Made by a program: the position numbers and the translations under genes. A stretch of DNA of 45,911 nucleotides from Candidatus Moraniibacteriota bacterium. Lineage in GTDB: Bacteria > Patescibacteriota > Minisyncoccia > Moranbacterales > UBA1568. The notes below the pieces were generated by a model, which worked only from the letters and a program-made list of their open reading frames with translations, did not search any database and was not told where the DNA came from. The DNA is taken from contig JAGOTT010000009.1 in assembly GCA_018061645.1 (NCBI GenBank), positions 1 to 45,911 of the forward strand, written 5' to 3'. The stretch's first letter is position 1. Every line of letters starts with the position of its first letter. Of this stretch, positions 19,837-26,746 are shown piece by piece.

Positions 19837-20760
19837 ATGCCTGAATCCTTCCCCATCCCGCAACCAAAGCAAGAACAAGTCCCGTCTCCCTTCGAGATGT
19901 GGCTTGAAACGGAGTTTCCGAAACAATACGAATCTCGAGCGAAAACGCTCGACCGTCTCGGTCTCCTTCGCATCCTTCCCGAATCAGGAATGTATGGAAT
20001 CGTCGATGTTCTCGGGAAGGAATGTTCGTTTCCGGAGATGGAGGATATCAAGGCGAAACTGCTCGAGAACAGGGAATTCTTCGAAAAGAAAGGTGATCAG
20101 GGATTCACGAGACTCGCTATCACTCCCTTCGGAATTCCGACCGCACGTCTCTTCGACACGATGAAGAAAGCCATCCTCAAACATAAGAAAGAAGGAACGC
20201 TTCTTTCCACGAACGGGGATCCGCTCGATCTCGATGAAAACGACCCCTTGTATACCTGGGACGGATACGAGAACCAGGAGATCTCGTATTTCCCCGAATC
20301 ATTCGACCAAGCGAGTCACGGAGGAAAAACAAAGGAGCAGATACTCGAAGAAGAACAACCCTTCCCCGGGTTCCTCGTCTCCTTCATCGAAGAAGACCTC
20401 GAGATCCCAAGACAAGGACAAGAAGAAACGAGGAGCGGGCGGACACGGATCGGAACGAACAAGACTCCGAAAGAATATCTGGAGCTTCTGAAACAGGAAC
20501 CATACCGAGGAGAGTCCGGCACCACCATCGAAGAGTGGACGACCCTCTTCCTCACCACGCTCGAGGAAGAAAACAAAGTCATCGACGACTACGGAAACAA
20601 GAAAAGCTCCGTCAACTGGAACCTTGGGACGTATTTTCCGGCCGGCGGGAGTGTCTCTTGCGCGAACTGGAATCGTGACGGCCGTCGGGTGAGCGTGGAC
20701 TGGGACGATGCGAGGGGTCGGGGCGAGAACGGCGGTTCTCGCGTCGCGGTGAGGGTGTGA
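19837..20760 (+). CDS. DGR variable target protein 1 (C-type-lectin-like C-terminus)
   Basis: This 307-residue protein is the first target of the retroelement. Its last 39 residues are encoded by the variable repeat at 20640-20755 (from about residue 269). The region preceding it, NWNLGTYFPAGG, and the end GGSRVAVRV fit the CLec/FGE-type fold that displays diversified residues in DGR targets. Residues 1-200 are highly charged, contain KALDRLGLL-like KTLDRLGLLRILPESG and HKKEGTLL, and match no family I know. There is no signal peptide or membrane segment, so a cytosolic location is likely. It is homologous end to end with the protein at 25820-26746. The start is supported by the leaderless promoter; the longer open frame overlaps the preceding gene. 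Confidence 0.85.
   Translation: MPESFPIPQPKQEQVPSPFEMWLETEFPKQYESRAKTLDRLGLLRILPESGMYGIVDVLGKECSFPEMEDIKAKLLENREFFEKKGDQGFTRLAITPFGIPTARLFDTMKKAILKHKKEGTLLSTNGDPLDLDENDPLYTWDGYENQEISYFPESFDQASHGGKTKEQILEEEQPFPGFLVSFIEEDLEIPRQGQEETRSGRTRIGTNKTPKEYLELLKQEPYRGESGTTIEEWTTLFLTTLEEENKVIDDYGNKKSSVNWNLGTYFPAGGSVSCANWNRDGRRVSVDWDDARGRGENGGSRVAVRV
20640..20755 (+). repeat. DGR variable repeat VR1
   Basis: This 116-nt segment aligns without gaps to the template at 21191-21306. Counted by eye there are 17 differences; 16 are at template adenines (15 A to G, 1 A to T) and one is C to T. The 3' block TCTCGCGTCGCGGTGAG is unchanged and would serve as the initiation-of-mutagenic-homology site. The stop codon of the target follows 2 nt after the repeat. 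Confidence 0.92.
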
Positions 20761-20813
20761 GATTTCGAAATTTGTTTCTTGTCTTTTCTTTCTCCTTTTT
20801 CTTTTTTTCTTCT

Positions 20814-20903
20814 GTCATTGCGAGCAAAGCGAAGCAATCCAGGGTTTTCCGGCTCACGAATCCATGGATTGCCACATCCTCGCAGATTCGGATTCGCAAT
20901 GAC
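20814..20903. repeat. GTCATTGCGA palindromic element (MITE-like)
   Basis: GTCATTGCGA (20814-20823) and TCGCAATGAC (20894-20903) are perfect inverted ends. A nested pair, GCAATCCA (20834-20841) and TGGATTGC (20865-20872), is also perfect. This matches a type of small palindromic repeat common in diverse bacterial genomes. It lies between VR1 and the template repeat, in a gap that holds no gene. Confidence 0.75.
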
Positions 20904-20963
20904 GAGAGCGTGCGGTGAGAAGCCACCTCCCATCTGAAGATGCGGGGCTGCCGCACATTGCTT

Positions 20964-21021
20964 CTGTCTAGACAGGCGCTTTACCCCGGGCTCCGCATGC
21001 GGAGCCCGGAAGCGTGGACAG
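20964..21021 (+). other. Strong hairpin in the DGR leader upstream of the template
   Basis: A 24-nt perfect palindrome at 20986-21009 (arms CCGGGCTCCG and CGGAGCCCGG, loop CATG) is extended by CGCTT (20977-20981) with AAGCG (21010-21014) and by CTGTC (20964-20968) with GACAG (21017-21021). It may fold at the 5' end of the template RNA or end transcription from target 1; no T-run follows. Confidence 0.55.
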
Positions 21022-21071
21022 ACCCAGCCATCGCGATTGACCTTGGCGGGTACGCAAGAAAATACATACAC

Positions 21072-21120
21072 CCTCACGAATGAGGAAAATGCATCCCTTA
21101 CCACGGAATAGTGAGGGATG
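21072..21120 (+). other. Two short hairpins just upstream of the DGR template
   Basis: CCTCA-CGAA-TGAGG (21072-21085) and CATCCCTTA with TGAGGGATG (21092-21120, one G-T pair) sit in tandem 70 nt before the template repeat. They are candidates for structured parts of the template RNA. The plus-strand frame through them is open but not protein-like. Confidence 0.45.
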
Positions 21121-21190
21121 AAACAGGCAAGCCAATGTATCCGATCGCTACCGTGGTTCCGATCGGGAAACGGACGCATTTTCTCATTAT

Positions 21191-21306
21191 GGCCGACGGG
21201 AATGTCTCTTGCGCGAACTGGAATCGTGACAACCGTCAGGCGAACGTGAACAGGAACGATGCGAGGAATCGGAACGAGAACAACGGTTCTCGCGTCGCGG
21301 TGAGAG
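21191..21306 (+). repeat. DGR template repeat (TR)
   Basis: The 116-nt template has 31 adenines by my count and eleven AAY codons when read in the target frame, as expected for a template built to diversify at AAY. It shares ungapped homology with VR1 (20640-20755) and VR2 (25825-25940). Homology to both begins at GGCCG(A)CGGG and ends at GTGAGAG, where TR diverges from the shared VR end GTGAGGG. TR lies in the same orientation as VR1 and the reverse transcriptase. No clear promoter was found; a TTGACC at 21037 is the best -35-like match. Confidence 0.92.
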
Positions 21307-21307
21307 C

Positions 21308-21649
21308 CTATGTATTGAGACTCCTGAGCCAGCCGCCCTGCATCCGTCCGATCTCGGCGAGCTTGGCTTGGGTCTGGAAAATCCGCGTCTCATTCGCGAG
21401 CTTGAGCTCGAGGAGGAGACGGAGCTTGAAGGCGGTCACCTCGAGGTGACTTCCGGCGCGGATGAGATAGCCGGATTTCATTGGTTTCGGGGCATTTTTC
21501 GCCATGATGAGTTCTTGGAGAAGCGCGAGTATCGACGATTCGAGGCTCTCGCCGAGCGAGTAGCGGAACCGCTTCTCGATATGACCGTTTGTTTCGACGG
21601 CGAATTTGTAGACTTCATACGTTCTGTTTATGATCGGCAATGTGTCCAT
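21308..21649 (-). CDS. avd: Avd-like accessory protein of the DGR (four-helix bundle)
   Basis: This 113-residue protein resembles the bAvd/S23-type four-helix proteins of DGRs, which bind the reverse transcriptase and template RNA and are needed for mutagenic retrohoming. Supporting segments are LPIINRTYEVYKFAVE (helix 1), FRYSLGESLESSILALLQEL (helix 2), IRAGSHLEVTAFKLRLLLEL (helix 3) and ETRIFQTQAKLAEIGRMQGG with the family end GGWLRSL (helix 4). Unusually it is on the minus strand. Its stop codon lies 1 nt beyond the template repeat and its start overlaps the 5' end of the reverse transcriptase frame by 20 nt. The DGR RNA spacer downstream of the template is therefore antisense to this gene. 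Confidence 0.82.
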   Translation of the reverse strand: MDTLPIINRTYEVYKFAVETNGHIEKRFRYSLGESLESSILALLQELIMAKNAPKPMKSGYLIRAGSHLEVTAFKLRLLLELKLANETRIFQTQAKLAEIGRMQGGWLRSLNT

Positions 21650-22121
21650 AGACGTAAGTGTGGAAAATATATGGAAGTGCTGGTTTCTCTTCCGGAAGGG
21701 GAAGAGATCGTCATGTGATATCGATGCGTTCGAGCGTTCTCTTGAGATGAATCTTTCGTCGCTCCATGCCGATATCGCGAACGGTCGCTACCGGCACGGC
21801 GGATATCGTTCGTTCATCGTGTCCGATAACAAGAAACGGGAGATTTCCGTAGCAAGCGTCCGAGACCGGGTCGTGCACCGACTGCTGTACGAATATCTCG
21901 TTCCGATCTATGACCAGACGTTCATCTTCGATGTCTGGTCGTATCGGAAAGAGAAGGGTCTCCTTGGTGCGATCGAACGGACGGAACATTTTTTCTCACG
22001 ATACCCGCGTTCGTTCGTTTGGCGCGCGGATGTGCGGAAGTTCTTCGATAATGTGGATCATCGGATACTGCTCGGGTTGTTGCGGAAGAAAGTATGGAAA
22101 ATTGATCAAAATTTTTTTCTG

Positions 22122-22199
22122 TGTCATTCCGAGCGAGTCCTCGAGTCGAGGAATCTGCCTTTTCATGCTGGAGATTCCTCGGCTATGCTCGGGATGACA
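22122..22199. repeat. TGTCATTCC palindromic element inside the reverse transcriptase
   Basis: TGTCATTCC (22122-22130) and GGGATGACA (22191-22199) are the ends, with one mismatch; internal AGGAATCT and GAGATTCCT also pair. At 78 nt it keeps the reading frame and translates as CHSERVLESRNLPF and so on. Elements with these ends are widespread intergenic palindromes, so this one looks inserted into the gene. Confidence 0.75.
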
Positions 22200-22260
22200 G
22201 AGATGGGACGAGCGACGACACTTCTCGAAGAGGTGATCGGGAGCTATCACGCATCGAATC

Positions 22261-22277
22261 GAGAGAGAGAGAGAGAG
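22261..22277. repeat. (GA)8G microsatellite in the reverse transcriptase
   Basis: Seventeen bases of alternating GA mark the frame change of the reverse transcriptase. Such tracts are prone to replication slippage. Nine or six GA units would restore one continuous frame; eight do not. Confidence 0.8.
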
Positions 22278-22717
22278 TACGGAGGCACGTCAAAAAGGCA
22301 TTCCGATCGGCAATCTGACGAGCCAGATTTTCGCCAATATCTATCTGAATGAGTTGGATCGGTTCGTGAAGCATGTGCTGAAGCCGAAAGTATATCTTCG
22401 CTACGGGGATGATTTCTTTATCATAACAGACGACCGGGAAACGGCAGTCGCCTTTCGTGAACGGATTACCCTTTTTCTTCTCCGTGAGCTTCGGCTGGAA
22501 ATCAACCCGAAGCATGATATACTGATTCCAGTGAAGAAGGGGCTTCGGTTTCTCGGTGTGGAGATTTTTCCGGGCGGACGGAGAATGAACAAGAGGAATC
22601 GGAAACGCATCATTCGGAATCTCGATCGGAAGAATATCGCGAGCTATCGGGGACTCGTCGCGAAGCACGAGAAAAAGAAGCGGATAAAGTTTTTCGATTG
22701 GACGGTACTTGATCGAT

Positions 22718-25700
22718 ATGATGAATTTTGAACGGCGGATAGGAAATATCGTCGGGAGTGCGCGGCGACAGGAGGCGCCGAAAGCGGTTCCCTTCGAGGG
22801 GCGTGCGGCGGTTTCGGCGCGAGCGGATCTGCGGAAGCGCGGACAGGAATTCCGCGTGCGCGTGCTCAATATGGAACGGCCGAAAGACGCATCGTCGGAG
22901 GAATACGACCGGAGCCTCGGGCTCGTCTTCCGCGAATCGAAAGGGGAGGCGGCGCTTGATCTGAATACTTCGTCTCTGGAGGATTTTGAACATGAGGCGG
23001 AGCGGTTCCGGGGACTGGCGGAGGCGAAGCGGGACGTTTTCCCGAGGTACGCCGCGTTTCTTTCGGCGCGAGCGGCGAAATGTGCCGAAGCGACGGGCGC
23101 GGATACCGCTCCGGATATCGTTTCCGCGGGAGCGTGTCTTGATACGATCCGCGACATCGACCCGAACACGCCGGCGAATCTCCTGCCGGATGCGATGATT
23201 CTTGGCTTGCGTGCGCGTGAAGCGTTGCGACTTCCGATGCCGGACATGAAAGCGGTCACGGAGGCCGCCCTCGACGACCCGTCGCTTCTCGTCGATTACG
23301 CGCTCGCGCTTGCGGAAAGCGACCGGAATGATTTTCTGGATCTCCTTCCGGAGGAGAAGCGCCGCGCGGTGTCCGTCGCGCTCGACGCGTCGGTTTCGCG
23401 CGTGCTCCACCAGTCGATCGTCGAGAAGGGGAGTGACGAGGAGGGGCAGCGATCCCGCGTCCGGCTTCGTCTCTATAACGGACTCCGCGAAACGCTTGAA
23501 CGCGGCGGAGCGGACGAAAAGGCGATCGCAAAGATCCTTGCGGAATCCATCGGTTCGCTCGGTGAGGATACGCGGCAGCTTCTTCTTGAGATTCTCCGCG
23601 ACGAATATGAGGCGGAGAATGATGATGCGGAAGAAGGGCAAGCCGATCATGCGCCACGCGTGATGAAAGTGTTCCTCGACCATTTCGATGATTTCCGGGG
23701 GAATGATATCGCGCTCCAGGTTGCCGGAAGCGCGGAGACGAATCGGCACCTCTCGATATTCATCCTCGGGAAGCTCATCAAAAACGGGTATCTTTCACCG
23801 GAGGTGAAACAGTGGTGGAGCGAGGAAAAAGCGGTGAAGGGGAAGGGACTCGATACGGAAAAGGCGCGGCTTGAAGTCATCAAGCGGACGATATCCGATC
23901 TCGGTGTCGTGCCGAGTCGGGAGATCCTTTCATTCCTTGCCGATGATCGGCAGTGGGAAGGGGTGACGCTCGAGGAGCGCATCGCGAAAATCCGCTCGAG
24001 CCAGGAGGAATTCTCCGGCATCACGGACAATCACGAGCTTGCGGCGGTGCTTTCGCAGGATGAACGAAAGGCGATGGTCTACTATCTCCTCCACGGAGGA
24101 GACGACCGGTTCAACCTCATCAACAGCTACGGGTTCGGAAAATTCAAGGAGATGGTCGGACTCATGAACGACCTGACGATCCACGAGCAGCCGATGCGGG
24201 TCTTTGAAAAGACGCTTCTCTCCGGTGGGATATCGGAAGATGCCGCGAAGATGATCGCGGATCGTCTCCGTTCGGGGCATCATCCGATCGGTGGCGCGCA
24301 GAGGCACGTCGACGTGAGTTTCGATGTGAGCGAGAACGCACTCGTGAAGAATGCCAATCTCGAGATCGGTCGCGTGCTCGGTCGGGAGCAGCTCGGCATC
24401 GCCATGCTTTTCCCGATGTATCGGGAATTCCTGGAGAGCGAGGCGGACGGGATGGGTGGGGAGGCGCTTGAGCGTATGAAGGGTGCGGATACGCTTGCCG
24501 ACCGGCTTGTGCTTCTCGGGGAAATCGAAACAGCGTATCCCGATTTCCGTTCACGTGCGATCGCGGAGCTTTCGGAAAATTGGCGTGCGTTCGGTGAGAA
24601 GATGATTCTTGAATTCCCGCTCGAGCAGGTGTTCGGTGAGCGGAGCGTTCCAGTGCGCGGGGAAGAGCTGCTTCCCCGGCTCGATACGAAGCGCGTGGAT
24701 TTGAAACGCATGAAGAAGGATCTTCTCGTGATCCTTCGGGGCGGGGATAAGAAACTCGCTGCGCTTCAGCGCGACATCCAGAAGAAACGGAAGGCGCGCG
24801 CGAATCTGCTCTCGGGGCTCGATCGGCAGGAGGATGGCCCGGGACGTGACGCACTTCAGGAAAAAATCCGCGGTGTCGAGGCGGAGCTTCGCGTCCTTGA
24901 AGCCGAGAAGGCGGCGCTCGGCGACCGAAAATCGGTCGATCGGTTCGCGCACATGAGCGAAGAGGAGCGGAAGGCGGAAGTCGAACGGATCGGGAGCGAG
25001 ATCCTCGCGCTCACCGAGAAGTCGCCGAGCGCGATCTTCACCTATATCACGATGCAGGTTTTGGGCGAAGATCGCCTCCGCGAGAGCGATATCGCACTCG
25101 TGCAGGAGATCGAGAGCCATCTTCAAGGACCGTTCCAGGCGATCGCCGACGCCGCGGCGTATCGGAAACCGCTTGCGGACAAGACTGAAAAGAAACGTAT
25201 GCGGGTAAGGCTCGAGTATCTCGACAAGACGGACCGGTTCATGAACATGGTGCGGTTCGCGGACAGCAAGATCTGCTGTTTCTCGAGCAGTAACTACGAG
25301 CAGACGATCCAGCACGGAACCCAAAACAAATATTGGGTCGCGTCCATCAATGCCGACCCGCTCTCGTTCGTCATCTCGATAGAGTCACCTCAGGAAGAGA
25401 CCGAGGACGCCGCTCATGCGAAACGACCGACGCCGAAAGAGAATCTCGGATTCATCTTCGGGAGCTTCGGGGCGGACGAGGAAGGAAAGCCGGCGATTCT
25501 TCTCAATGGTATCTACTACGCACCGGGGCTCGAGGACAAGGCGCAGATGGAGTCGATGCTTTCCGGCGTCGAGCGGATATTCGACGGACTGCCGATTCGA
25601 ACGGTCGCCCTTGCGGGGCGGTATGGCGGGTCTTTCGGTGAGAACGCGGTTCCGGATGGGTATTCGAAAGACGCCGTGCGGCTCACGCGGCTCCGTGCGC

Positions 25701-25819: not shown

Positions 25820-25824
25820 TCACA
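25795..25824 (-). other. Hairpin abutting the 3' end of VR2
   Basis: TGTGATC (25795-25801) and GATCACA (25818-25824) pair perfectly; inner TGG (25802-25804) and CCA (25812-25814) extend the stem around a CACAAGA loop with a 3-nt bulge. It begins exactly where VR2 homology ends. In the Bordetella phage DGR a hairpin a few bases after VR promotes retrohoming, so an analogous role is possible. Confidence 0.45.
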
Positions 25825-26746
25825 CCCTCACCGCGACGCGAGAACCGTCATTCCCGCCCCGATCCCTCGCACCGTACCTGCTCACGTACGCCCGACGGTA
25901 GCCGCGACGCCAGCTCGCGCAAGAGACATACCCGTCGGCCGGGAAGTATGTCCCGAGGTTCCAGCAGATGGAATCCTTGCCGTTTCCGTAGTCGTCGGTG
26001 ACTTGGTTTGTTTCCTCGAGATTGGTGAGGAAGAGCGTCGCCCACTCTTCGATGGTGAGCCCTGATTCTCCCTGATACTGGGGATTCTCTTTCAGAAGTT
26101 TCAGATACTGGAGCGGCGTCTTGTTCGTCTCGATCCGTTTCCGTCCACCCTTCGTTTCTCCTCGGCCTTCCCGTGGGATATCGAGGTTGTCCTCGAGAAA
26201 CGAGACGAGGAACCCGGGGAAGGATTGGGTTCCTTCGAGCATCTGTTGTTTGGTTTTTCCATTGTGGTCCGTCCGGTCGAAGGATTCCGGGAAGCACGAG
26301 ATCTCCTGGTTCTCGTATCCCTCCCAGGTATACAGAGGATCGTTCAGGTCGAGATCGAGCGGTTTCCCGTCCGTGTCGAGAAGTGTTCCTTCTTTCTTGT
26401 GCTTGAGGATAGCTTTCTTCATCGTGTCGAAAAGACGTGCGGTCGGAAGTCCGAAGGGAGCGATCGAGAGTCTCGTGAATCCCTGTTCCGCCTTTTTTTC
26501 GAAGAATTCCCTGTTTTCAAAAAGCTTCTTCTTCACATCTTCCATCTCCGGAAAGGGACACTCCTTCCCGAGGGTATCGACGATGCCATATGTCCCCGAT
26601 TCGGGGAGGATACGGAGGAGACCGAGACGATCAAGGGTCTTGGCTCTCTGCTCGTATTGTTTCGGAAACTCGGTTTCAAGCCACGTCTCGAAGGGAGAGG
26701 GGGCGTGTTCGTGTATTTGTTGTGGGGTTGGGAAGGATTCGGGCAT
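25820..26746 (-). CDS. DGR variable target protein 2 (C-type-lectin-like C-terminus)
   Basis: This 308-residue protein is homologous to target 1 along its full length: both start MPESFP, share KTLDRLGLLRILPESG and DTMKKAILKHKKEGTLL, and end GSRVAVRV. VR2 encodes the region from about residue 270. Diversified positions that are Asn in the template appear here as Tyr, Ser, Arg, Gly or Asp, for example GYRRAYVSRYGARDRG. There is no signal peptide. The gene is inverted relative to the rest of the cassette. It converges stop-to-stop with the 1033-residue gene and diverges from dnaJ. Its promoter is a leaderless extended -10 beside a CIRCE-like operator. Function of the conserved N-terminal 200 residues is unknown. 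Confidence 0.85.
   Translation of the reverse strand: MPESFPTPQQIHEHAPSPFETWLETEFPKQYEQRAKTLDRLGLLRILPESGTYGIVDTLGKECPFPEMEDVKKKLFENREFFEKKAEQGFTRLSIAPFGLPTARLFDTMKKAILKHKKEGTLLDTDGKPLDLDLNDPLYTWEGYENQEISCFPESFDRTDHNGKTKQQMLEGTQSFPGFLVSFLEDNLDIPREGRGETKGGRKRIETNKTPLQYLKLLKENPQYQGESGLTIEEWATLFLTNLEETNQVTDDYGNGKDSICWNLGTYFPADGYVSCASWRRGYRRAYVSRYGARDRGGNDGSRVAVRV
25825..25940 (-). repeat. DGR variable repeat VR2
   Basis: Read on the minus strand, this 116-nt segment aligns without gaps to the template. Counted by eye there are 19 differences: 17 at template adenines (12 A to G, 4 A to T, 1 A to C), one T to C and one C to T. The invariant 3' block and the following GTGTGA stop context match VR1. 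VR2 lies about 4.5 kb from the template and in the opposite orientation. Confidence 0.92.

Follow-up and report, generated by a model that had tools for sequence, protein, structure and literature searches.

The window, i.e. the whole stretch of DNA that was analysed, comprises 45,911 nt of contig JAGOTT010000009.1 (GCA_018061645.1, Candidatus Moraniibacteriota bacterium). A DGR spans about 19.8-26.7 kb of this stretch, with the following features:

19837..20760, plus strand: DGR target gene 1 (307 aa), with VR1 at its 3' end
20640..20753, plus strand: VR1; 15 of its 16 differences from the template repeat (TR) fall at TR adenines
20956..21190, plus strand: 5' leader RNA region (bounds approximate), apparently a divergent relative of the conserved leader and positioned as in relatives
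21079..21092, plus strand: 5' arm of a P3-like stem, AATGAGGAAAATGC, pairing with 21176-21188
21176..21188, plus strand: 3' arm of the P3-like stem, GCATTTTCTCATT, ending 2 nt before the TR
21191..21304, plus strand: TR, a 114-nt repeat block
21308..21649, minus strand: avd (bAvd family, matched by PF22296 and NF033474), inverted, between TR and reverse transcriptase (RT)
21630..22352, plus strand: N-terminal part of the DGR RT in a first frame, matching an RT profile and the RTs of relatives
22117..22203, plus strand: palindromic dispersed element with 13 sites in the genome, an in-frame insert in the RT
22261..22276, plus strand: (GA)8 microsatellite in the sequence, at which the RT changes frame
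22354..22731, plus strand: C-terminal part of the DGR RT in the other frame, with YGDD, and GIPIGNLTSQ just upstream in the same frame
25827..25940, minus strand: VR2; 16 of its 18 differences from the TR fall at TR adenines
25820..26746, minus strand: DGR target gene 2 (308 aa), with VR2 at its 3' end

The locus is a genuine DGR. The TR is paired with VRs that differ from it at TR adenines (15/16 and 16/18), mostly by A to G changes, and the RT carries GIPIGNLTSQ and YGDD, the corresponding motifs in relatives being LPLGNLTSQ and YADD. An LPLGNLTSQ-like motif 4 is a mark of DGR RTs. At the protein level the two targets share 75% identity. Target gene 2 lies inverted, together with its own VR, about 4.5 kb beyond the TR, and thus a single TR serves two targets on opposite strands.

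A preliminary description, made from the sequence alone, had taken the minus-strand gene between TR and RT for avd. The profile search agrees: the product of 113 aa matched Pfam bAvd PF22296 across residues 7-110 (E 4e-10, 40.5 bits, cutoff 40) and NCBIfam NF033474 with 55.5 bits (E 6e-15). The latter score is below the equivalog cutoff of 80 bits, which is missed by the Avd of most relatives, too. The inversion of avd relative to TR and RT and its head-to-head arrangement with the RT were likewise confirmed, both in the window and in related loci. The distances given for the gene need some adjustment. The avd stop does adjoin the TR, though not at the 1 nt reported: the stop codon (21308-21310) begins 3 nt beyond the end of the 114-nt repeat block, and the two figures differ only through where the repeat end is set. 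The reported 20-nt overlap of avd and RT holds if the RT starts at the ATG at 21630, and its exact length is uncertain because the conserved RT domain begins near 21654 and the RT start codon is unproven. We also encountered a weaker second Avd-like gene in the window's genome (G000:C3:105005-105301, 33.5 bits) that has no RT of the DGR type with it; its product is possibly a non-DGR four-helix protein.

In BPP-1 the TR RNA has the end of avd on its 5' side and, on its 3' side, a folded spacer that recruits RT-Avd and primes the cDNA; reverse transcription in the Bordetella phage is stopped by a motif at the avd end (PMC12875486). The window resembles BPP-1 (mtd-avd-TR-brt) in its RT, its bAvd-family helper, the adenine-directed TR/VR differences, the position of the VR at the 3' end of the target gene and a TR that lies upstream of the RT on the same strand. 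Unlike in BPP-1, there is a structured RNA 5' of the TR, relatives have a terminator after the TR, and avd, as had already been noted for this DNA, is inverted and placed between TR and RT. The window thus has neither an avd upstream on the TR strand nor a structured 3' spacer directly after the TR. In host group, DGR type and targets without recognizable domains the locus is similar to DGR clade 2, which Roux et al. 2021 describe as restricted to Patescibacteria/CPR (PMC8144416), and judged by these features the window DGR very likely belongs to this clade. The words 'avd', 'accessory' and 'orientation' are absent from the main text of PMC8144416, and we noticed no leader RNA there.

The layout was surveyed in two sets of loci. 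A search of relatives with NF033474 gave matches in 34 of 54 genomes, from which 40 loci were collected and parsed by scripts for A-biased repeats, RT and avd. The order VR-TR(+)-avd(-)-RT(+) was present in 28 loci including the window. Nine loci were canonical-like, and all seven of these that had a TR carried avd upstream on the same strand as the TR. Two canonical avd-TR pairs (L053:5501-7563 and L069:5713-8958) have the RT on the opposite strand, so RT inversion arises independently as well. The second set, in which a few loci overlap with the 28, consisted of the 80 best RT relatives in GTDB contigs. These mostly bear Patescibacteria names (Moranii-, Yanofsky-, Kaiser-, Nomura-, Falkow-, Azam-, Wildermuth-, Magasanik-, Buchananbacteria and others), and one record is labelled Planctomycetota. 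Every one of the 78 avd-bearing loci had avd inverted, the remaining two lacking avd at a contig edge, and TR(+)-avd(-)-RT(+) was found in all 66 loci with a detectable TR. This is the survey of CPR DGRs that the preliminary description had proposed, and as the same order recurs in every related locus of the RT clade that could be examined, the inverted layout is not a matter of chance.

Among 80 viral contigs 61 showed the canonical avd-TR-RT order and nine were inverted, the latter among those nearest the query. Where the same genomes, or phages, carry canonical DGRs, avd and TR share a strand. In the RT tree one branch splits the inverted from the canonical layouts with a support of 100/98; the exact place of the window RT is unsure because its branch is very long (the RT is interrupted). 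By sequence comparison this clade, which takes in a large group of ultra-small bacteria, has a fixed order of target/VR, leader, TR, avd(-) and RT(+). DGRs are numerous in Patescibacteria: among 383 genomes sampled from the class, 159 had an RT of this type. Small genomes can hold up to three DGRs: G010 (L044, L045, L046), G016 (L047, L048), G045 (L062, L063, L064) and G011 (L073-L075), and inverted and canonical types occur side by side in several single genomes (the G010, G016, G045, G011 group). At L045, L051, L056, L068, L070 and L078 the TR 3' end reads CCGAAA or similar and the VR CCGCAA, a recurrent difference that recalls IMH*/IMH of the Bordetella phage.

We then compared the flanks of the TR across 90 inverted loci that remained after de-duplication. 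On the 5' side we detected a leader of ~225 nt with three covarying domains, P1, P2 and P3, which ends at the 5' edge of the TR. In the P3 alignment (A3, 19 sequences) 97.5% of the cells were paired and 15 of 21 pairs showed double changes. The covariation of P3 was 0.656 compared to 0.280 when shuffled (0/500) and also far above slid controls; for P1 and P2 together we observed 0.561 compared to 0.269 (0/500). As drawn, the innermost pairs of P1 and P2 would leave a loop of 2 nt; they probably form a non-canonical motif, namely the repeated CGRYYANGRYT. This motif occurs in 67 copies in the 90 leaders versus 0.2 in shuffles, and downstream of the TR none was found in the 90 loci. Folding of the leaders against shuffles gave a mean z of -2.41, and -10-like boxes cluster 220-250 nt before the TR, near -240. 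On this covariation the leader is a conserved structured RNA.

A covariance model built from P3 (R1) matched 75 of the 80 named loci at about 650 nt before the RT, and the five misses are explained by contig edges. Across the phylum R1 matched 64 of 379 sampled genomes; in those that were also searched for RTs most matches, judged by eye, precede a listed RT on their own strand by about 550-700 nt. The distance from the end of the model to the TR start has a median of 1 nt, with 58 of 62 values within -4..+9. In the canonical loci tested R1 found nothing at E < 0.01, the two chance-level scores (E 0.5) coming from viral contigs. Searches of Rfam yielded no family at gathering score for the leaders of eight relatives and only a chance miRNA match for the window leader. 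Structured RNA 5' of a reverse-transcribed segment is also a feature of retrons (msr-msd-RT). Retrons, however, are not known to have adenine mutagenesis, a VR or an Avd, and the window DGR differs from them by its adenine-directed TR/VR differences, its VRs and its Avd. Pairing between the leader and the TR 3' end, in the manner of retron inverted repeats, was not found beyond chance: among thermodynamic duplexes, the cis ones were no stronger than those with the TRs of other loci (p 0.18).

On the 3' side a plus-strand hairpin with a T-run was present <=75 nt past the TR in 71 of the 90 inverted loci, starting at a median of 10 nt after the TR. Shuffled sequences gave 1.8, the minus strand 4/90 and the interior of avd 0/90, and the same scan gave 0/66 in canonical DGRs. 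By the strict scan 19 of the 90 loci, the window among them, have no terminator; a looser scan recovers some. Further downstream (60-260 nt past the TR) the plus-strand RNA of the clade folds like shuffles, with a mean z of -0.16. Because of the -10-like box ahead of the leader and the terminator just past the TR, we predict a template RNA of about 380 nt consisting of leader, TR and hairpin. Given how soon after the TR the hairpin starts, this RNA would overlap just the last few codons of avd. Conversely, the avd mRNA could run on into TR antisense, since minus-strand terminators are rare just past avd (the 4/90 above). The promoter scan also gave -10-like peaks near the RT and avd starts, which coincide with conserved coding sequence.

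The window copy itself looks damaged. R1 matched neither this copy nor any other place in the window's genome, and it also missed L047, L052, L062 and L078. The window leader has no CGRYYANGRYT and no clear -10 box, and the strict scan finds no terminator on the 3' side of the TR. Despite the missing R1 match the stem topology of the leader resembles that of the R1 family: the P3-like stem has 13 bp with one bulge and closes 2 nt before the TR, and the fold is stronger than that of shuffles (z -2.24 for 20990-21195 and z -5.26 for the 220 nt before the TR). A dispersed palindromic repeat, partially matched at about a dozen other places in the genome, lies at 20803-20905, between VR1 and TR and upstream of the expected position of the leader promoter. 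The RT, the sole one of its type in the genome, is not intact; it runs through 21630-22352 and then 22354-22731 in another frame, which the preliminary description had not noticed. The frame changes at the (GA)8 and the gene also contains the insert 22117-22203 (~87 nt, in frame, 13 places in the genome, fold -49.7 kcal/mol). Decay, phase variation and an assembly error are all possible causes of this break. Interrupted RT genes were also seen in four other inverted DGRs (L040, L043, L054 and L079). Since R1 match, motif, clear -10 box and terminator are missing and the RT is out of frame, the function of the window copy is doubtful. The few non-adenine differences between the TR and the VRs suggest that it was active until recently.

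We consider it likely that the window DGR, degraded or at any rate interrupted, belongs to a Patescibacteria type with an inverted avd and a free-standing, noncoding template RNA. The template RNA of this type is predicted to be a transcript composed of promoter, leader, TR and terminator, with leader and TR transcribed together. The leader would serve as a binding scaffold for the RT-Avd complex, in place of the Bordetella 3' spacer, and the P3 stem would halt reverse transcription at the 5' edge of the TR, similar to the Bordetella motif at the end of avd. The cDNA would begin at or near the 3' hairpin. We infer these roles of leader, P3 and hairpin solely from position and conservation. Avd and RT would come from their own divergent transcripts, and the template RNA would therefore be uncoupled from protein expression.

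The preliminary description had proposed a different use of the same region, in which the TR transcript runs through avd antisense, this part being the priming spacer, and pairing with the avd mRNA regulates either RNA. In the window the avd stop lies 3 nt from the TR and, as in 18 other loci, the strict scan gives no terminator, so that read-through into avd antisense is possible in this copy. We nevertheless regard the proposal as very improbable, as 71/90 loci have plus-strand terminators and the RNA downstream is unstructured, the covarying RNA being 5' of the TR. The fold of the plus-strand spacer, which had been suggested as a check, gave a z of only -0.78 in the window, and together with the clade mean this led us to reject a structured antisense spacer. 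A further reading concerns the leader, which could be a regulatory RNA instead of a scaffold. It would act in cis, like an attenuator or riboswitch, on the transcription of TR or RT; the 3' hairpin would be a weak or regulated terminator or a cDNA-initiation hairpin, and the substrate a longer read-through RNA. The order of promoter, leader and terminator would suit attenuation, and the RT has no clearly separate promoter, its -10-like peak being confounded by conserved coding sequence. However, P3 is locked to the 5' edge of the TR and not to the terminator, from which the ~120-nt TR separates it, and canonical DGRs showed no such terminator at all (0/66), which makes this reading quite unlikely.

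The inversion of avd may also be a founder event whose orientation as such means nothing for function, in contrast to leader and terminator. This agrees with the RNA part of the preferred explanation and denies only that the inversion serves the uncoupling. As a single branch separates the layouts, the fixed orientation of avd probably goes back to one event, and in the canonical L053 and L069 the RT is inverted with the avd-TR order kept. On the other hand, RNA model, terminator and inversion are found together throughout the clade and are missing outside it. We give the founder reading a minor, though real, chance. A stronger form of the scaffold role, in which the 5' leader fully replaces the 3' spacer and would bind RT-Avd as well as supply the cDNA primer (e.g. 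an internal 2'-OH), seems unlikely; if true, a DGR would here have a retron-like topology and would start its cDNA in another way than the Bordetella phage.

The mechanism of DGRs is known mainly from one phage, in which the spacer 3' of the TR recruits the enzyme and primes the cDNA. The free-standing template RNA that we favour makes this general model testable, because here it is the 5' side of the template that holds the conserved RNA, and the transcript seems to end right after the TR. In Patescibacteria DGRs the job of the spacer must then fall to the 3' hairpin or to the 5' leader, and a template RNA that is compact and self-contained would lend itself to reconstitution. In how they treat their template RNA, the elements of this clade probably depart from the textbook case of the phage.
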